This document shows positions 16,766 through 24,784 of a stretch of 64,000 bases of DNA, piece after piece. Origin of the DNA: Oligoflexia bacterium. Its GTDB lineage: Bacteria; Bdellovibrionota; Bdellovibrionia; Bdellovibrionales; Bdellovibrionaceae. The notes under the pieces are model-generated. The model was not told the origin of the DNA. It was given only the letters and a program-made list of their open reading frames with translations, and made no database searches. The stretch covers positions 1 through 64,000 of the forward strand of contig BOLD01000006.1 of NCBI GenBank assembly GCA_016861345.1, given 5' to 3'. Every line of letters starts with the position of its first letter. The stretch's first letter is position 1. The position numbers and the translations under genes were made by a program.

Positions 16766-18541
16766 TTAAAACCGCTCCCAGAACTGACGTTGAGCTTGGG
16801 CTTGGGACTTAAACATCAAAAGTCCTGAGATGTATTTGGCTCCCGTGATTTGGCAATATTCTTTTGCTCTTGAATCATCCCGGTAGTTGAGATCAATAAC
16901 TCGTTTGGGGGTCCAATTGTGTTTTGGCAATTCAGCATTTGGTGCCGCCGCCCAAATCAGTGTTTCTGGATTTGCGGTAGGGGCTTCGTCGGCGTCCTCA
17001 CCTCTCATCTGGCCTGTTCGAGACGAGTAGGAAATTGCGCTGGGGATAAGCTCGTGGATAACAGGCAACGTGCCCCCGCCACCCCAAATGACAACTTCAC
17101 CCAGATCAGACTCGGTTTCAAGTAGAGAGCTTAGGCCCTCAAGGTCAGTGTTGTGAGCCCACCAGCCATGATTTGATTCAAGAACAAGAGTGTTCGCTGA
17201 TTGAAGTTTCTGTGCAATTTCTGTGTGGTCTTTTGCAAAATGAAAGGCTTTTATTTTTAGAGGCGAGGTCACCGCCGCATATCGTAGCCCCATTTTTTCA
17301 AGTAAAGGGAGAGATTCATCCCATTCATGCTCAGAAATATCAATTGCAAAGAAGGGAATTCCTCGGCTTCGAAAATAGGGCTGGTGTTCAGCAGGGGAAT
17401 AGCTATGCATCACTGGGTGTCCCAGTACAGCTGCAAATTCTTGATGGCAAGAAGAAATGTTGAGCCATTCGCTCAGAGTGGGCTGATCCAGATGGGGACT
17501 GCCAAAATCATGTATGAAATTTAATTTTTGTTGATGCTTGAGCCACAGTCGAACCCAGGTCCATCTGCCGCTTTTTGATCGTGGCAAGAAGGATCGATTC
17601 TTTGGATCTTGGCTTTGCCAAGATAAACACTGACGTAATTCTGAGTAATTATGAATTTCAATAGCCAATTTCAGGTGTCGGTTTTTTCCGTTGGATTCAA
17701 GATCATTCAGAAGATCAGAAATTGATTTCTCACCGCGCTCGTGAAGAGAAATAATCGTGGGCTTGATTTGGTCTGGAGTGCCCAGCTCAAGAGCCCAATC
17801 TGTTTCATAACCTTCGGCATTCATCTTTTGCAGGATCGTCTTTGTCGGTTGAGTTCGACATGAGATGAGAATTTGATTCTTAGGAATCAAAGTGAGAGCT
17901 TTTTGAAATTCAACCTCTGTTAAGAGATCATCTCTGAGTTCATATTGATCAAATCCACGAGAGAAATAATAGTTTTTAAAAATCTCGGCATTTTGTAGGT
18001 GAGCTGCGGTCAAAGTTAAAATTCCACCAGCATCATCCACCTGGTTCAAAAAAATCATTTTTTCAATTTCGTTGGGACTGGTGAGTCCTTCAGGCATTTC
18101 GTAATGCCAGTGAGCAAATCGTGAATACAATTCAGATCTTTTCTGGTAACGCTCTTGGAATTCTTCAAGCGGAGTCAGATTTTGATTGAGTCTTGGACGA
18201 TCCAGAAAAATTCGACCCAGCGAATCTGTTTTGCGTGACACCCAAACGATTTCGACATCGGGATGAATTTGGATTTGAGTCAGGTCGAATCCAGCTCCCA
18301 GAGAAATAATGAACTCGGACCTTCGCATCAGGTATTCCAGGGTTTTCAATTCAATCTGGCGAAATGTTTTTTCTCCAACCAGTTCAAAGATATCAGCAAT
18401 CTTTGCTTGAGCCCCTTTTTCGATCTCACGGTCCAGATCATGGACGGCTATCGACGATCCCCGAAGCGAATGATAAATCTGCAGTCTTTGGACTAAGGCA
18501 GTTTTTCCGACCCCCCGATGACCGATGAGCAGCATTTTCAT
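16766..18541 (-). CDS. trifunctional fusion: shikimate kinase, AroD-like domain, shikimate dehydrogenase
   Basis: This 591-residue protein joins three shikimate-pathway domains. Residues 1-165 are shikimate kinase (Walker A GHRGVGKT at 7-14, HDLDREIE near 34, DRPRLNQ near 114). Residues 175-357 look like type I dehydroquinase (YELRDDLL at 200, ILISCRT at 224, EIHNYSEL with the His at 297, DQPTLSEWL at 352). The Schiff-base Lys position appears as Arg331 and the barrel's end is short, so it may be inactive. Residues 368-591 are shikimate dehydrogenase (GHPVMHSYSP, TSPLK with K429, SANTLV, HNTD with D466, GGGG cofactor loop, SGLLMFKSQAQ). The ATG overlaps the aroA stop (ATGA). Symbols would be aroK-aroD-aroE. 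Confidence 0.85.
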   Translation of the reverse strand: MKMLLIGHRGVGKTALVQRLQIYHSLRGSSIAVHDLDREIEKGAQAKIADIFELVGEKTFRQIELKTLEYLMRRSEFIISLGAGFDLTQIQIHPDVEIVWVSRKTDSLGRIFLDRPRLNQNLTPLEEFQERYQKRSELYSRFAHWHYEMPEGLTSPNEIEKMIFLNQVDDAGGILTLTAAHLQNAEIFKNYYFSRGFDQYELRDDLLTEVEFQKALTLIPKNQILISCRTQPTKTILQKMNAEGYETDWALELGTPDQIKPTIISLHERGEKSISDLLNDLESNGKNRHLKLAIEIHNYSELRQCLSWQSQDPKNRSFLPRSKSGRWTWVRLWLKHQQKLNFIHDFGSPHLDQPTLSEWLNISSCHQEFAAVLGHPVMHSYSPAEHQPYFRSRGIPFFAIDISEHEWDESLPLLEKMGLRYAAVTSPLKIKAFHFAKDHTEIAQKLQSANTLVLESNHGWWAHNTDLEGLSSLLETESDLGEVVIWGGGGTLPVIHELIPSAISYSSRTGQMRGEDADEAPTANPETLIWAAAPNAELPKHNWTPKRVIDLNYRDDSRAKEYCQITGAKYISGLLMFKSQAQAQRQFWERF

Positions 18542-19716
18542 AGGTTGACTCCGATTGTTGACCAGAACTCAGGAAAACTTTTACTAACAACTTGGGGGCT
18601 CTCAAGCTTGATATCAAACCCAGCTCGTATCAAAAGACCAGCGGCCATAGCCATTCGGTGATCATGATCGGGATTAAATGCAAACGATGTGGGCTTAAGT
18701 TTTCGACCCTTGCCGTGAATAACAAGGCCGTCCTCTTTCATGTCGCAATCAACTCCAGCGAATTGAAGAAGCTCCCAGGTCTTTGCAATTCGATTGGATT
18801 CCTTATGAACCAGATGGGGGGCACCGCTTAGACGCGAGATTCCATTCGCAAAAGAGCAAAGAACTCCAAGGACAGGAAAGAGATCAGGGCAATTCTCTAA
18901 GTTCATTTCGATGGGCAGAAGTTTTTCGGTTTGCTTGATTTTCAAAGTATCGTTTTGAATTTGTAGATCAGCGCCCATTTCTTTCATCAGTCGAACAAAG
19001 ATGTAATCTGGTTGAAGGCTATGGGTGTTGAATCCAGAAATTTCAACTTCTCCACAAATCGCTGCTGCAGCAGCCACGGCAAAGGCAGAAGAGTAATCTG
19101 GCTCCACAGTAATTTCAGTAATCGTGACCTTTTGATTTTGAGGAATAACAACGTGATGCTCATCTTCACTGAACGTCATCCCAACCTGGCGGACAAGATC
19201 AAGGGTCATTTGCCAATAACTGTCAGATACAGAGGGTCCGCTGAGATCCAACTCAAGCTCAAAGGGCAATTCCCAAGCGTTCAATAAAACAGCAGAGGCA
19301 AACTGACTTGATCTTTCTCTCTGAATTTTCAAGGCCCCATTGGGCATGCGCCAACCTGTTGTTTCAATAATTAGAGTGTTCTTCTCAATATGTGCAAGAA
19401 CCCCTAACTGATGAAGAGAAGAGAGAAGTTCACCCTGAGGTCTCTCAAATAGTCTTGGGGAACCTGTTAATTTCCACTGCCCGGGAATTCGAGAGGCTCG
19501 AAGCGCCATAAATCGAAAGGTTGTTCCGGCTTCGCCACAAAAAATTTCTTGATTGGCAGTTAGGCTTTCAAGGGCTTTTTTCATGTGAACAACATCATCA
19601 CAAAGGGAAAGGCCATTGATAATTAAGTCTGGAAAATAACTTTTCAGAATAAGGCAACGATTCAGAATTGATTTTGATCCTGGAATTGTTCCCTTATATT
19701 GAAAGCAGTTAGACAC
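18538..19716 (-). CDS. aroA: 3-phosphoshikimate 1-carboxyvinyltransferase (EPSP synthase)
   Basis: This enzyme transfers enolpyruvate from PEP to shikimate 3-phosphate. It has the family motifs PGSKSILNR, CGEAGTTFRFM (the GNAGT site), RPQGELLSSL, SSQFASAVLL, EPDYSSAFA and FNPDHDHRMAMA. I place the start at GTG 19716, giving 392 residues: AAAAGGCAGG lies just upstream and it overlaps the aroB stop by eight bases. A TTG at 19776 would add 20 residues but overlap aroB by 68 bases. It is the middle gene of the aroB-aroA-aroKDE operon. Confidence 0.93.
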   Translation of the reverse strand: MSNCFQYKGTIPGSKSILNRCLILKSYFPDLIINGLSLCDDVVHMKKALESLTANQEIFCGEAGTTFRFMALRASRIPGQWKLTGSPRLFERPQGELLSSLHQLGVLAHIEKNTLIIETTGWRMPNGALKIQRERSSQFASAVLLNAWELPFELELDLSGPSVSDSYWQMTLDLVRQVGMTFSEDEHHVVIPQNQKVTITEITVEPDYSSAFAVAAAAAICGEVEISGFNTHSLQPDYIFVRLMKEMGADLQIQNDTLKIKQTEKLLPIEMNLENCPDLFPVLGVLCSFANGISRLSGAPHLVHKESNRIAKTWELLQFAGVDCDMKEDGLVIHGKGRKLKPTSFAFNPDHDHRMAMAAGLLIRAGFDIKLESPQVVSKSFPEFWSTIGVNL

Positions 19717-20704
19717 GAAGGGCCTGCCTTTTCCATTCGGTAACGAGTTCTGAGATTTTAACTTTTGTGACAACAATTTTGCCCGGGCTCTTCACAAATA
19801 TATATCTGATCTGGCTGTGTGCAGAAATTTTTTTATCTTGTGAAAGATAAACGCCAGGATTGTTGATTTCGGCCAATTCGTTAGAAAGGATCCATTGGTC
19901 AAGGGGCAGAGTGAGTCTTGGTTGGGTGATTCCTCTTTTTTTGCCCCAGTTTAGAGCAAACAATGTTCCCAGTAAGACGGCATATCCATGGGGAAGTCCC
20001 GAGGCCGACTCAAGCACATGACCTACGGTGTGCCCCAAATTAAGAACGTGACGAAGACCTTTTTTTTCATAAGGGTCTTTATTGACGATTTTTAATTTGG
20101 CTTGAACAAGGCTGGGAAGAAGTTTCCACAACTGTCTTTCGTCCCAAACCTTTATTTGAGAAATATTTTTCCATAAGCCCCCACCGGATATGAGCCCAAT
20201 TTTATAGACCTCACCCAGAGCCTCAAAAACTCTTTCTGATGGCAAGGCCGAGAGAACAGATTTCACGAGGTAGACTTTATCGGCGGGATAAAATGTGCCA
20301 ATTTGGTTTTTAAATTGAGCACAATTCAGAGCTGTTTTCCCGCCATGAGAAGAATCAATGGCTGAGAGCCAAGTACTTGGAATGTGAATTAAGCCCACGC
20401 CGCGCTTTAGAATACTGGCGACAAACCCGCCAAAATCACCAACAGAGCCTCCGCCAAAAACAACAATTTGCATTGTGTCCTTGGGGATCCCCTCTGAAAT
20501 TTTTAAAATGGTATCCAGGTGTGAAGAAAAATGTTTAAGATCTTTAAGATTCTCCCCAGAGCTAACCGAATATCGCCTTGGAAATTTTTTGATCCAGGAA
20601 GAATATTTATTACTCAAAATCTGGTCATAAACCAGAATTTGATTTTTGAAATCGACTTTCGGTAACGAATTTGAAAAATGCAGTTGAGATTTTTTAAAGC
20701 TCAT
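19709..20704 (-). CDS. aroB: 3-dehydroquinate synthase
   Basis: This metal- and NAD-dependent enzyme cyclises DAHP to dehydroquinate. The 331-residue protein carries VVFGGGSVGDFGGFVAS (NAD site), RGVGLIHIPSTWLSAIDSSHGGKTALN, KNQIGTFY, GEVYKIGLI and LNLGHTVGHVLE with the metal-ligand His residues. Some positions differ from the enteric enzyme (SHGGKTA where SVGGKTA is usual) but the order is complete. It begins eight bases after the coiled-coil gene at 20713 and overlaps aroA at its end. Confidence 0.92.
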   Translation of the reverse strand: MSFKKSQLHFSNSLPKVDFKNQILVYDQILSNKYSSWIKKFPRRYSVSSGENLKDLKHFSSHLDTILKISEGIPKDTMQIVVFGGGSVGDFGGFVASILKRGVGLIHIPSTWLSAIDSSHGGKTALNCAQFKNQIGTFYPADKVYLVKSVLSALPSERVFEALGEVYKIGLISGGGLWKNISQIKVWDERQLWKLLPSLVQAKLKIVNKDPYEKKGLRHVLNLGHTVGHVLESASGLPHGYAVLLGTLFALNWGKKRGITQPRLTLPLDQWILSNELAEINNPGVYLSQDKKISAHSQIRYIFVKSPGKIVVTKVKISELVTEWKRQALRV

Positions 20705-21674: not shown

Positions 21675-22643
21675 ATGTATCAAATCCCTATGTCTGGGAA
21701 TTCATTTGGCCGACATTTTATTATTCACACATTTGGCGAAAGCCACGGCGCGGCCCTTGGTGCTATCGTTGATGGCTGTCCTGCAGGATTGGATTTTGAT
21801 CTTTCATTTCTCCAGAGTGAATTAGATCGTCGCCGCCCCGGCACGAATCAATCTGTATCAAGTCGTCAAGAGCCTGATCAGGTCGAGGTTTTAAGTGGAG
21901 TCTTTCAAGGAAAAACTCTCGGTACCCCAATCGCACTGATCGTTCGCAATCAAGATCAGCGATCTGCTGACTATGACCAGATTCAAAATCAACCTCGTCC
22001 CGGTCATGCCGATGATATCTGGCGACAGAAGTACGGCCACGTTGATCATCGTGGTGGGGGGCGATCCTCGGGCCGCGAGACGGTCTCTCGGGTTCTTGGT
22101 GGAGCAGTCGCCAAGATGGTGCTTCAAAAAATATATCCAAATTTAAAATTTGAAACCCGCATTATCCAAATGGGGCCATTTCAGAATCCATCAGAGACTC
22201 AAATTGCAGAGGCTCTTGAAAAAGCAAAGGCCCAGGGGGAAAGCTTCGGAGCTCAAATCGAGCTTCGAATTCAAAACCCCCCGCCCAGCCTTGGTCAGCC
22301 TGTTTTTCATAAGCTGAAATCAGATTTGGCTGGTGCGATGATGAGTGTTGGAGCGACAACAGCAATTGAATTTGGCGCAGGCACAGCTGCGGGCTTTGCA
22401 AAGGGCACCGAGTTTCATCGGTCAAACCAGGCTGTTTATGGTGGTCTACGGGGCGGAATCAGCACTGGTGAAGACATTGTGATGAAGATCACAATGAAGC
22501 CCACCTCTTCAATTCTTGACGTAGCAAAGCAGGGTCGCCATGATCCTTGCATCGGCCTTCGAGCTCGTCCCGTGTTCGAGGCCATGGCCGCACTTGTTTT
22601 AGTTGACCATCACCTTGGATTAAATCAAGATCAGTTTCGTTAA
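21675..22643 (+). CDS. aroC: chorismate synthase
   Basis: AroC makes chorismate from EPSP using reduced FMN. The motifs are GESHGAALGAIVDGCPAG, RRRPGTN, RPGHADDIWRQKYGHVDHRGGGRSS (joined over a normal spacing), GGISTGEDI, KPTSSI and GRHDPCIGLRARPVFEAM. At 322 residues it is shorter than the usual 350-390, with a shortened loop between the KPTSSI and GRHDP motifs. Neither the ATG at 21675 nor a second one at 21690 has a clear ribosome site, perhaps because of the hairpin just upstream. It supplies chorismate to the men genes downstream. Confidence 0.94.
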   Translation: MYQIPMSGNSFGRHFIIHTFGESHGAALGAIVDGCPAGLDFDLSFLQSELDRRRPGTNQSVSSRQEPDQVEVLSGVFQGKTLGTPIALIVRNQDQRSADYDQIQNQPRPGHADDIWRQKYGHVDHRGGGRSSGRETVSRVLGGAVAKMVLQKIYPNLKFETRIIQMGPFQNPSETQIAEALEKAKAQGESFGAQIELRIQNPPPSLGQPVFHKLKSDLAGAMMSVGATTAIEFGAGTAAGFAKGTEFHRSNQAVYGGLRGGISTGEDIVMKITMKPTSSILDVAKQGRHDPCIGLRARPVFEAMAALVLVDHHLGLNQDQFR

Positions 22644-23840: not shown

Positions 23841-24692
23841 TTACAACTTCTGAAGTGGGTGGTTCAGGGCTGATAAAACGCCCTCAATTTGCTTCATTAA
23901 TATTTTAAAATCTTCAAGGGTCAGTGCTTGCTTGCCGTCAGAGAGAGCCTCTTCGGGACGTGGGTGGACCTCAACGATCACGCCATCGGCGCCAACGGCG
24001 GCTGCGGCAAGAGCGACTTTTGGAACGAACTCTCGAATTCCAACTGCGTGGGAAGGGTCAACGATGACGGGATAGTGAGTTCGAGCTTTTGCGAAAATCA
24101 CAGCATTGAGATCAAAAGTATAGCGAGTCGCCGTTTCAAAAGTTCGAATTCCCCGTTCGCAAAGAACGATTCCCTCGTTTCCTCCAAGAGAAATGTATTC
24201 TGCAGCTTTGATCCACTCTTCAATCAGGGCTGAAAAACCCCGCTTCAGCATGATGGGTTTTCGGCTCATGCCGAGCTCTTTTAGAAGAGCATAGTTAAAC
24301 ATATTTCGAGCCCCGACTTGGTACATAGCTACATAGTCATCGAGTACTTCAATTTGTCGAGGGTCAGTCACCTCTGTGACAAGGCCCATCTTTGTTTGAT
24401 CAAGCACGTTGCGGATAAAATGTAGGGCCTCAGATCCTAACCCTTGAAAAGCTTTCGCGCTGGTGCGCATTTTCCAGATGCCACCGCGTAAAAGAACGGC
24501 ACCAGAGTTTTTAACTCCTTGGGCAGTTTCAAGAAACTGACCGTAGCTTTCAATTGAACAGGGACCTGCAATGACAGAAAAATCAGGTCCGCCAATTTTA
24601 ATATCGCCGACTTGGACTGCCTTAGTTTTTCGTAAAGGCAACACTGCGCCATGAGTTCTAAGAAGAGGACTTGTCTCTGAAGTAATTTCCAT
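23841..24692 (-). CDS. aroF: 3-deoxy-7-phosphoheptulonate (DAHP) synthase
   Basis: This is the first enzyme of the shikimate pathway, joining PEP and erythrose 4-phosphate. It is the short AroF/KDO8P-like (type I beta) form. Motifs are VIAGPCSIES, LLRGGIWKMRTS, VTEVTDPRQIE, YQVGARNMFNY, IMLKRG, ERGIRTFE and IVDPSHAVG, with metal-binding residues retained. There is no ACT or chorismate mutase domain. I choose the ATG at 24692 because AGGCGGA precedes it (283 residues); an upstream ATG at 24731 would add 13 residues with no ribosome site. It diverges from menF and precedes ubiE. Confidence 0.92.
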   Translation of the reverse strand: MEITSETSPLLRTHGAVLPLRKTKAVQVGDIKIGGPDFSVIAGPCSIESYGQFLETAQGVKNSGAVLLRGGIWKMRTSAKAFQGLGSEALHFIRNVLDQTKMGLVTEVTDPRQIEVLDDYVAMYQVGARNMFNYALLKELGMSRKPIMLKRGFSALIEEWIKAAEYISLGGNEGIVLCERGIRTFETATRYTFDLNAVIFAKARTHYPVIVDPSHAVGIREFVPKVALAAAAVGADGVIVEVHPRPEEALSDGKQALTLEDFKILMKQIEGVLSALNHPLQKL

Positions 24693-24784
24693 GTATCCGC
24701 CTGTTAAGGTGAAGGTGGGAAGGTATACCATTATTTTAGATTAGAGAAACTACTTCAGGTGAAGTTTTGTAAGAAAGCTAGGGT

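Follow-up and report, generated by a model that had tools for sequence, protein, structure and literature searches.

Results

Organization of the shikimate operon

The window analysed here is a stretch of 64,000 nucleotides from an Oligoflexia bacterium of the order Bdellovibrionales (GenBank assembly GCA_016861345.1, contig BOLD01000006.1, positions 1 to 64,000). It carries on its minus strand an operon in which aroB and aroA are followed by one gene for a protein (K-D-E) that joins shikimate kinase (K), a 3-dehydroquinate dehydratase-like domain (D) and shikimate dehydrogenase (E). This order and this fusion, pointed out in an earlier note for their likeness to AROM (Aro1) of fungi and protists, are both borne out by gene calls and domain searches; B, A, K, D and E occupy three polypeptide chains in the window. 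Judging from the sequence comparisons described below, we consider it quite probable that the operon represents an independently evolved, AROM-like shikimate multi-enzyme with an active type I-like D domain.

The first gene, aroB (19709..20704, minus strand), encodes a 331-residue 3-dehydroquinate synthase (step 2 of the pathway; Pfam DHQ_synthase, 1e-28, with NCBIfam in agreement) that, in an alignment with AROM, retains the metal-ligand motifs GEV, GH..GH and HG. It is followed by aroA (18538..19716, minus strand), which encodes 5-enolpyruvylshikimate 3-phosphate synthase (EPSPS, step 6; Pfam EPSP_synthase, 2e-59, again with NCBIfam in agreement) and starts with a GTG within the end of aroB, its frame being open from a TTG at 19776. 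The K-D-E gene (16766..18541, minus strand; steps 5, 3 and 4) starts with ATG and encodes 591 residues. The reported overlaps of 8 bp between aroB and aroA (19709..19716) and of 4 bp, ATGA, between aroA and the K-D-E gene (18538..18541) are indeed present, both out of frame. It had also been suggested that the loss of two stop codons would turn the operon into a polyprotein, but overlaps of these lengths place the neighbouring genes in different frames, so that fusion requires an insertion or deletion and not a lost stop codon alone.

The K domain (residues 1-165; 18047..18541, minus strand) contains the motifs GHRGVGKT, DLD, FRQIE and RPRL and is matched by Pfam SKI at residues 29-146 (1.2e-13; 51.9 bits against a cut-off of 22.1). 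The E domain (residues 366-591; 16766..17446, minus strand), the sole AroE domain in the genome of the window, is a short shikimate dehydrogenase with the motifs TSPLK, NTD, GGGGT and SRTG, the first two of which hold the catalytic Lys and Asp; Pfam Shikimate_dh_N matches it at residues 372-452 (2.2e-9; 37.8 bits against a cut-off of 27). Two NCBIfam models also match the protein under their curated cut-offs, namely TIGR00507 (aroE) at 9e-22 and the AroDE model PRK09310, which covers residues 259-490. The E domain is about 50 residues under the usual length, the difference lying in the cofactor half, where GGGGT replaces the usual GAGGA motif. TSPLK, previously taken as an AROM-like mark, is not diagnostic: the corresponding motifs of AROM are TMPLK, TIPLK and, in Schizosaccharomyces pombe, TIPYK, and TSPLK is present also in a stand-alone bacterial AroE.

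The central domain is a probable, divergent type I dehydratase

The D domain (residues 166-365; 17447..18046, minus strand) contains the motifs ELR, SCRT, SLH, LKLA, WVRL and DQP. The Pfam family of type I dehydroquinases, PF01487, found no match in the 591-residue protein, nor anywhere in the genome of the window. In an alignment of 17 relatives, which are only 32-40% identical to the window sequence, a Glu and an Arg (ELR), a second Arg (S.R), S.H, a Lys (LKLA), a third Arg (WYRL) and DQP are invariant. Type I dehydratases have as catalytic residues, in Salmonella numbering, Glu46, Arg48, Arg82, His143, Lys170, Arg213 and Gln236, and the invariant residues of the D domain follow the same order. 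Aligned in hhalign to a profile of type I dehydratases from bacteria and fungi, the D-domain profile gave an E-value of 3.5e-7 with the catalytic residues matched, and the top PDB profile match was a 3-dehydroquinate dehydratase (E-value 0.011). The model predicted from the single sequence, examined for the TIM-barrel fold of type I enzymes, was poor (predicted local distance difference test score of 48), and its Foldseek matches were not significant.

The failure of Pfam to recognise the domain might be taken to mean that it is a dead or structural remnant, with another enzyme performing step 3. Such a case has been reported for Candida albicans Aro1, in which the dehydroquinase domain is inactive and a type II enzyme makes up for it (PMC9074039). 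However, the columns for the catalytic Glu, Arg, Arg, His, Lys, Arg and Gln are occupied by these residues in 74, 70, 71, 74, 74, 73 and 73 of 74 relatives, respectively, amid divergence elsewhere in the domain, and no genome was found to combine AroQ with the fusion, which makes a dead D domain unlikely.

The distribution of dehydratases in the phylum points the same way. Of the 369 genomes surveyed, the fusion is strongly matched in 136 and AroQ is present in 142, with no genome having both (Fisher p ~1e-39, a descriptive value only, as related species are not independent). Pfam DHquinase_I finds a dehydratase in just five of the 369, none of them with the fusion. This mutual exclusion supports the view that the D domain functions as a type I dehydratase, albeit a very divergent one, in place of AroQ. 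Two genomes of the same order (G001 and G090), both 100% complete, lack K-D-E, AroQ and any AroE domain, which may reflect loss of the shikimate pathway.

Distribution of the fusion and of the gene order

Within the order, represented by 141 genomes, the K-D-E protein was matched in 129, or 128 after removal of G069, which was excluded for its weak match, a stand-alone AroE (269 residues) and AroQ; eight further genomes of the phylum carry the fusion outside the order. The three domains lie nearly always in one continuous frame, and many of the carriers are single-contig genomes, which excludes an assembly-joining error. An assembly or frameshift artefact that joined separate genes, a concern raised along with the original observation, finds no support at this locus and is refuted by the recurrence of the same protein in 128 of the 141 genomes; we regard it as almost inconceivable. 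The one artefact of this kind that we came across was an apparent fusion of K-D-E with chorismate synthase in G128 (L041:8065-10655), which stems from scaffold gaps (runs of N).

Gene order was assessed in 80 fetched loci, of which 58 have B-A-K-D-E contiguous and in the order of AROM, so that the survey of related genomes proposed at the outset found both the order and the fusion to be widespread. We take the fusion to have existed already in the ancestor shared by the order. In most relatives aroC lies directly downstream of K-D-E, unlike the divergent aroC of the window.

In ten genomes (G037, G038, G079-G083, G089, G326 and G333) aroA is itself in frame with K-D-E, giving an A-K-D-E protein of four domains. 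The one in G082 is cut by a contig end; that in G326 has one TGA flagged inside the match, yet a frame of 1149 residues covers all four domains. At the junction, the C terminus of AroA (KSFPEFWS) runs into the P-loop of the kinase (GHRGxGKT) either directly or by way of a few linker residues. For the four fused loci that were sampled, three changes are required on the trees of AroB and AroE, which suggests that aroA was joined in frame later than K-D-E was formed, and about three times. Four domains was the maximum, as no five-domain B-A-K-D-E chain was found among the bacterial proteins examined. The only frame long enough for a full bacterial AROM, of 1366 residues at L093, consists of A-K-D-E plus a non-coding frame that overlaps, while aroB is read in a different frame.

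Relation of the operon to AROM

The earlier note had left open whether the operon is a relative of the ancestor of AROM or the order arose twice. Mixture-model trees were built domain by domain, with AROM sequences taken from PDB entries 7u5s, 6hqv, 1dqs and 5swv. The operon clade received full support (100/100) in each of the five, and AROM fell outside it every time; none of the five domains groups with AROM, an outcome named beforehand as speaking against ancestry. The AroA domain of AROM was placed inside class I EPSPS (100/96), and its AroB domain grouped with the non-operon AroB of G201 (100/99). Similarity scores agree with the trees. With the AROM domains of C. albicans as queries, the median bits against the operon clade and against other bacteria were 92 and 192 for B, 66 and 239 for A, 18 and 44 for K, -1 and 20 for D, and 19 and 73 for E; for B, A, K and E, the scores against other bacteria are about two- to fourfold those against the operon clade, and D has no score at all against the operon clade. 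When an alignment led by AROM was scanned against the genomes of 84,980 species, a scan that may omit close relatives of the window, no such operon and no bacterial AROM were among the matches listed, which consisted of class I EPSPS genes, chiefly from Proteobacteria and their relatives, and a few clusters.

The non-operon AroB of G201, the nearest to AROM AroB in the tree, belongs to a cluster in another family of the phylum (f12; L302/L303, C114) that reads A-K (611 residues), aroC, aroB and D-E (513 residues), an order known from chlamydiae. Relatives of G201 use AroQ, so that its cluster was likely acquired by transfer. It was considered as a lead to AROM and set aside, since its order is not that of AROM and its D and E domains do not follow AROM in the trees.

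Several points weigh against an independent origin with an active D domain. The reference bacteria for aroA were picked by their closeness to AROM, so the contrast in AroA scores is partly built in. Approximately unbiased (AU) tests of a grouping of AROM with the operon clade gave p values of 0.063 for A, 0.153 for B, 0.42 for K, 0.59 for D and 0.56 for E, and 0.39 for B and A together on a reduced set. The stem of the operon clade is very long and hides deep relationships, which limits what the trees can tell. For the D domain, searches of the window's genome with PF01487 and PF01220 gave no match, but that genome is 85% complete and such absences, taken alone, are weak.

These results bear on the possibility that the B-A-K-D-E order is homologous, AROM having descended from an old bacterial operon that survives in this lineage in a rapidly evolving and partially fused form; we find this improbable. 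Put explicitly, a common cluster of that order would have given rise to both, the bacteria evolving fast and fusing K-D-E and the eukaryotes fusing all five. The identical order and direction of the five genes, a type I dehydratase on both sides and the failure of the AU tests to reject a shared split are in its favour. Yet AROM joins the operon clade in none of the five trees, its AroA lying in class I EPSPS and its AroB beside a non-operon AroB, the domain scores are two to four times lower against the operon clade, and other lineages of the phylum show other orders, so that we judge a common cluster unlikely. Even less credible is a horizontal transfer of eukaryotic AROM into these bacteria followed by its splitting: it would explain the shared order of the five enzymes and found no other support, whereas the fusion is deep and order-wide, all of its domains are little similar to AROM, and AROM is neither nested in nor placed around the operon clade in any tree. 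In sum, an origin of AROM from within the operon clade is not supported, a very deep sister relation of the two is not formally rejected by the AU tests, and an order that arose twice is the favoured alternative.

Convergence is made easier by the pieces available. A metagenome-assembled genome of Clostridia has B and A fused (L135/L237; 770 residues) in the same way as the first two domains of AROM, and aroB and aroA adjoin in Bacteroidota. Fused D-E occurs in Syntrophaceae, Nitrospinota and Phycisphaerae, with such fusions at loci L187, L207, L215 and L283. The kinase is joined to A at L303 (G201), to E at L116 and L284, in Oscillibacter and f17 genomes, and to B in Thermomicrobiota. Counting B-A and D-E as one unit each leaves three units with six possible orders, so that a match to AROM by chance, at about 1 in 6, would not be improbable, which also speaks against a common cluster. 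We therefore regard it as most likely that the match to the AROM order is a convergence from units recurring in bacteria, that is, adjacency of B and A, fusion of D to E and joining of K to a neighbour. A further arrangement was seen in family f17 (G296-G299; L284-L287, L305), where B and D are followed by an E-K fusion and then A.

Discussion

If the operon is an independently evolved multi-enzyme, as we favour, the K-D-E protein would carry the three middle steps of the pathway, from dehydroquinate through dehydroshikimate and shikimate to shikimate 3-phosphate, with the aroB product delivering its substrate and the aroA product consuming what it makes. Where start and stop codons overlap, translation of the neighbouring genes is probably coupled and the enzymes would be produced in step, and the fusion would hold three of them at equal amounts and may curb the loss of intermediates. 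The remaining steps would be filled out by two nearby genes, aroC (21675..22643, plus strand; chorismate synthase, step 7; Pfam, 4e-99) and a gene for 3-deoxy-D-arabino-heptulosonate 7-phosphate (DAHP) synthase (23841..24731, minus strand; step 1; Pfam DAHP_synth_1, 4e-69). With these, the genes for the seven steps leading to chorismate fit within 8 kb.

Fused shikimate enzymes as such are already known. Multi-domain EPSPS has been found in a survey to be rare in bacteria, two domains being usual (PMC9394408), and the domains of C. albicans Aro1 have been described as relatively autonomous (PMC9074039). No account of a K-D-E or A-K-D-E protein from bacteria turned up in the open-access full-text literature, and as far as that literature shows, the earlier statement that no described bacterial operon with this order and a K-D-E fusion is known is correct; these bacterial fusions thus appear to be undescribed. 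They provide naturally occurring shikimate proteins of three and four domains arranged as in AROM, through which the assembly of a textbook multi-enzyme is open to stepwise study in bacteria, and close relatives with and without the fusion are available as controls. They also bring to light a putative dehydratase lineage overlooked by the Pfam model; as Pfam misses the D domain, genomes of this kind can appear to be without step 3 of an essential pathway.

Among known systems, other bacterial partial fusions likewise combine neighbouring shikimate enzymes in one protein, but they are of other pairs or orders, none with three or four of these domains. The bifunctional dehydroquinate dehydratase/shikimate dehydrogenase (DHQ-SDH) of plants and chlamydiae (PRK09310) also has D joined to E in the same order, whereas K-D-E has K in front and differs in its sequence clade and in gene order; the trees for D and E, in which this family was represented by the plant protein, place that protein with other bacteria. 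With type I 3-dehydroquinate dehydratases (PF01487) the D domain shares the positions of the Schiff-base Lys and of the conserved His, Arg and Gln, yet it is below detection by that model, is only about 200 residues long and is without the loop after the second conserved Arg. AROM differs in that its domains are nearer to ordinary bacterial enzymes than to those of this operon, in which aroB and aroA are separate and D and E are shorter and very divergent. What the two have in common is the set of five enzymes ordered B-A-K-D-E with a dehydratase of type I, and in ten relatives of the window four of the five AROM domains are held in one chain.

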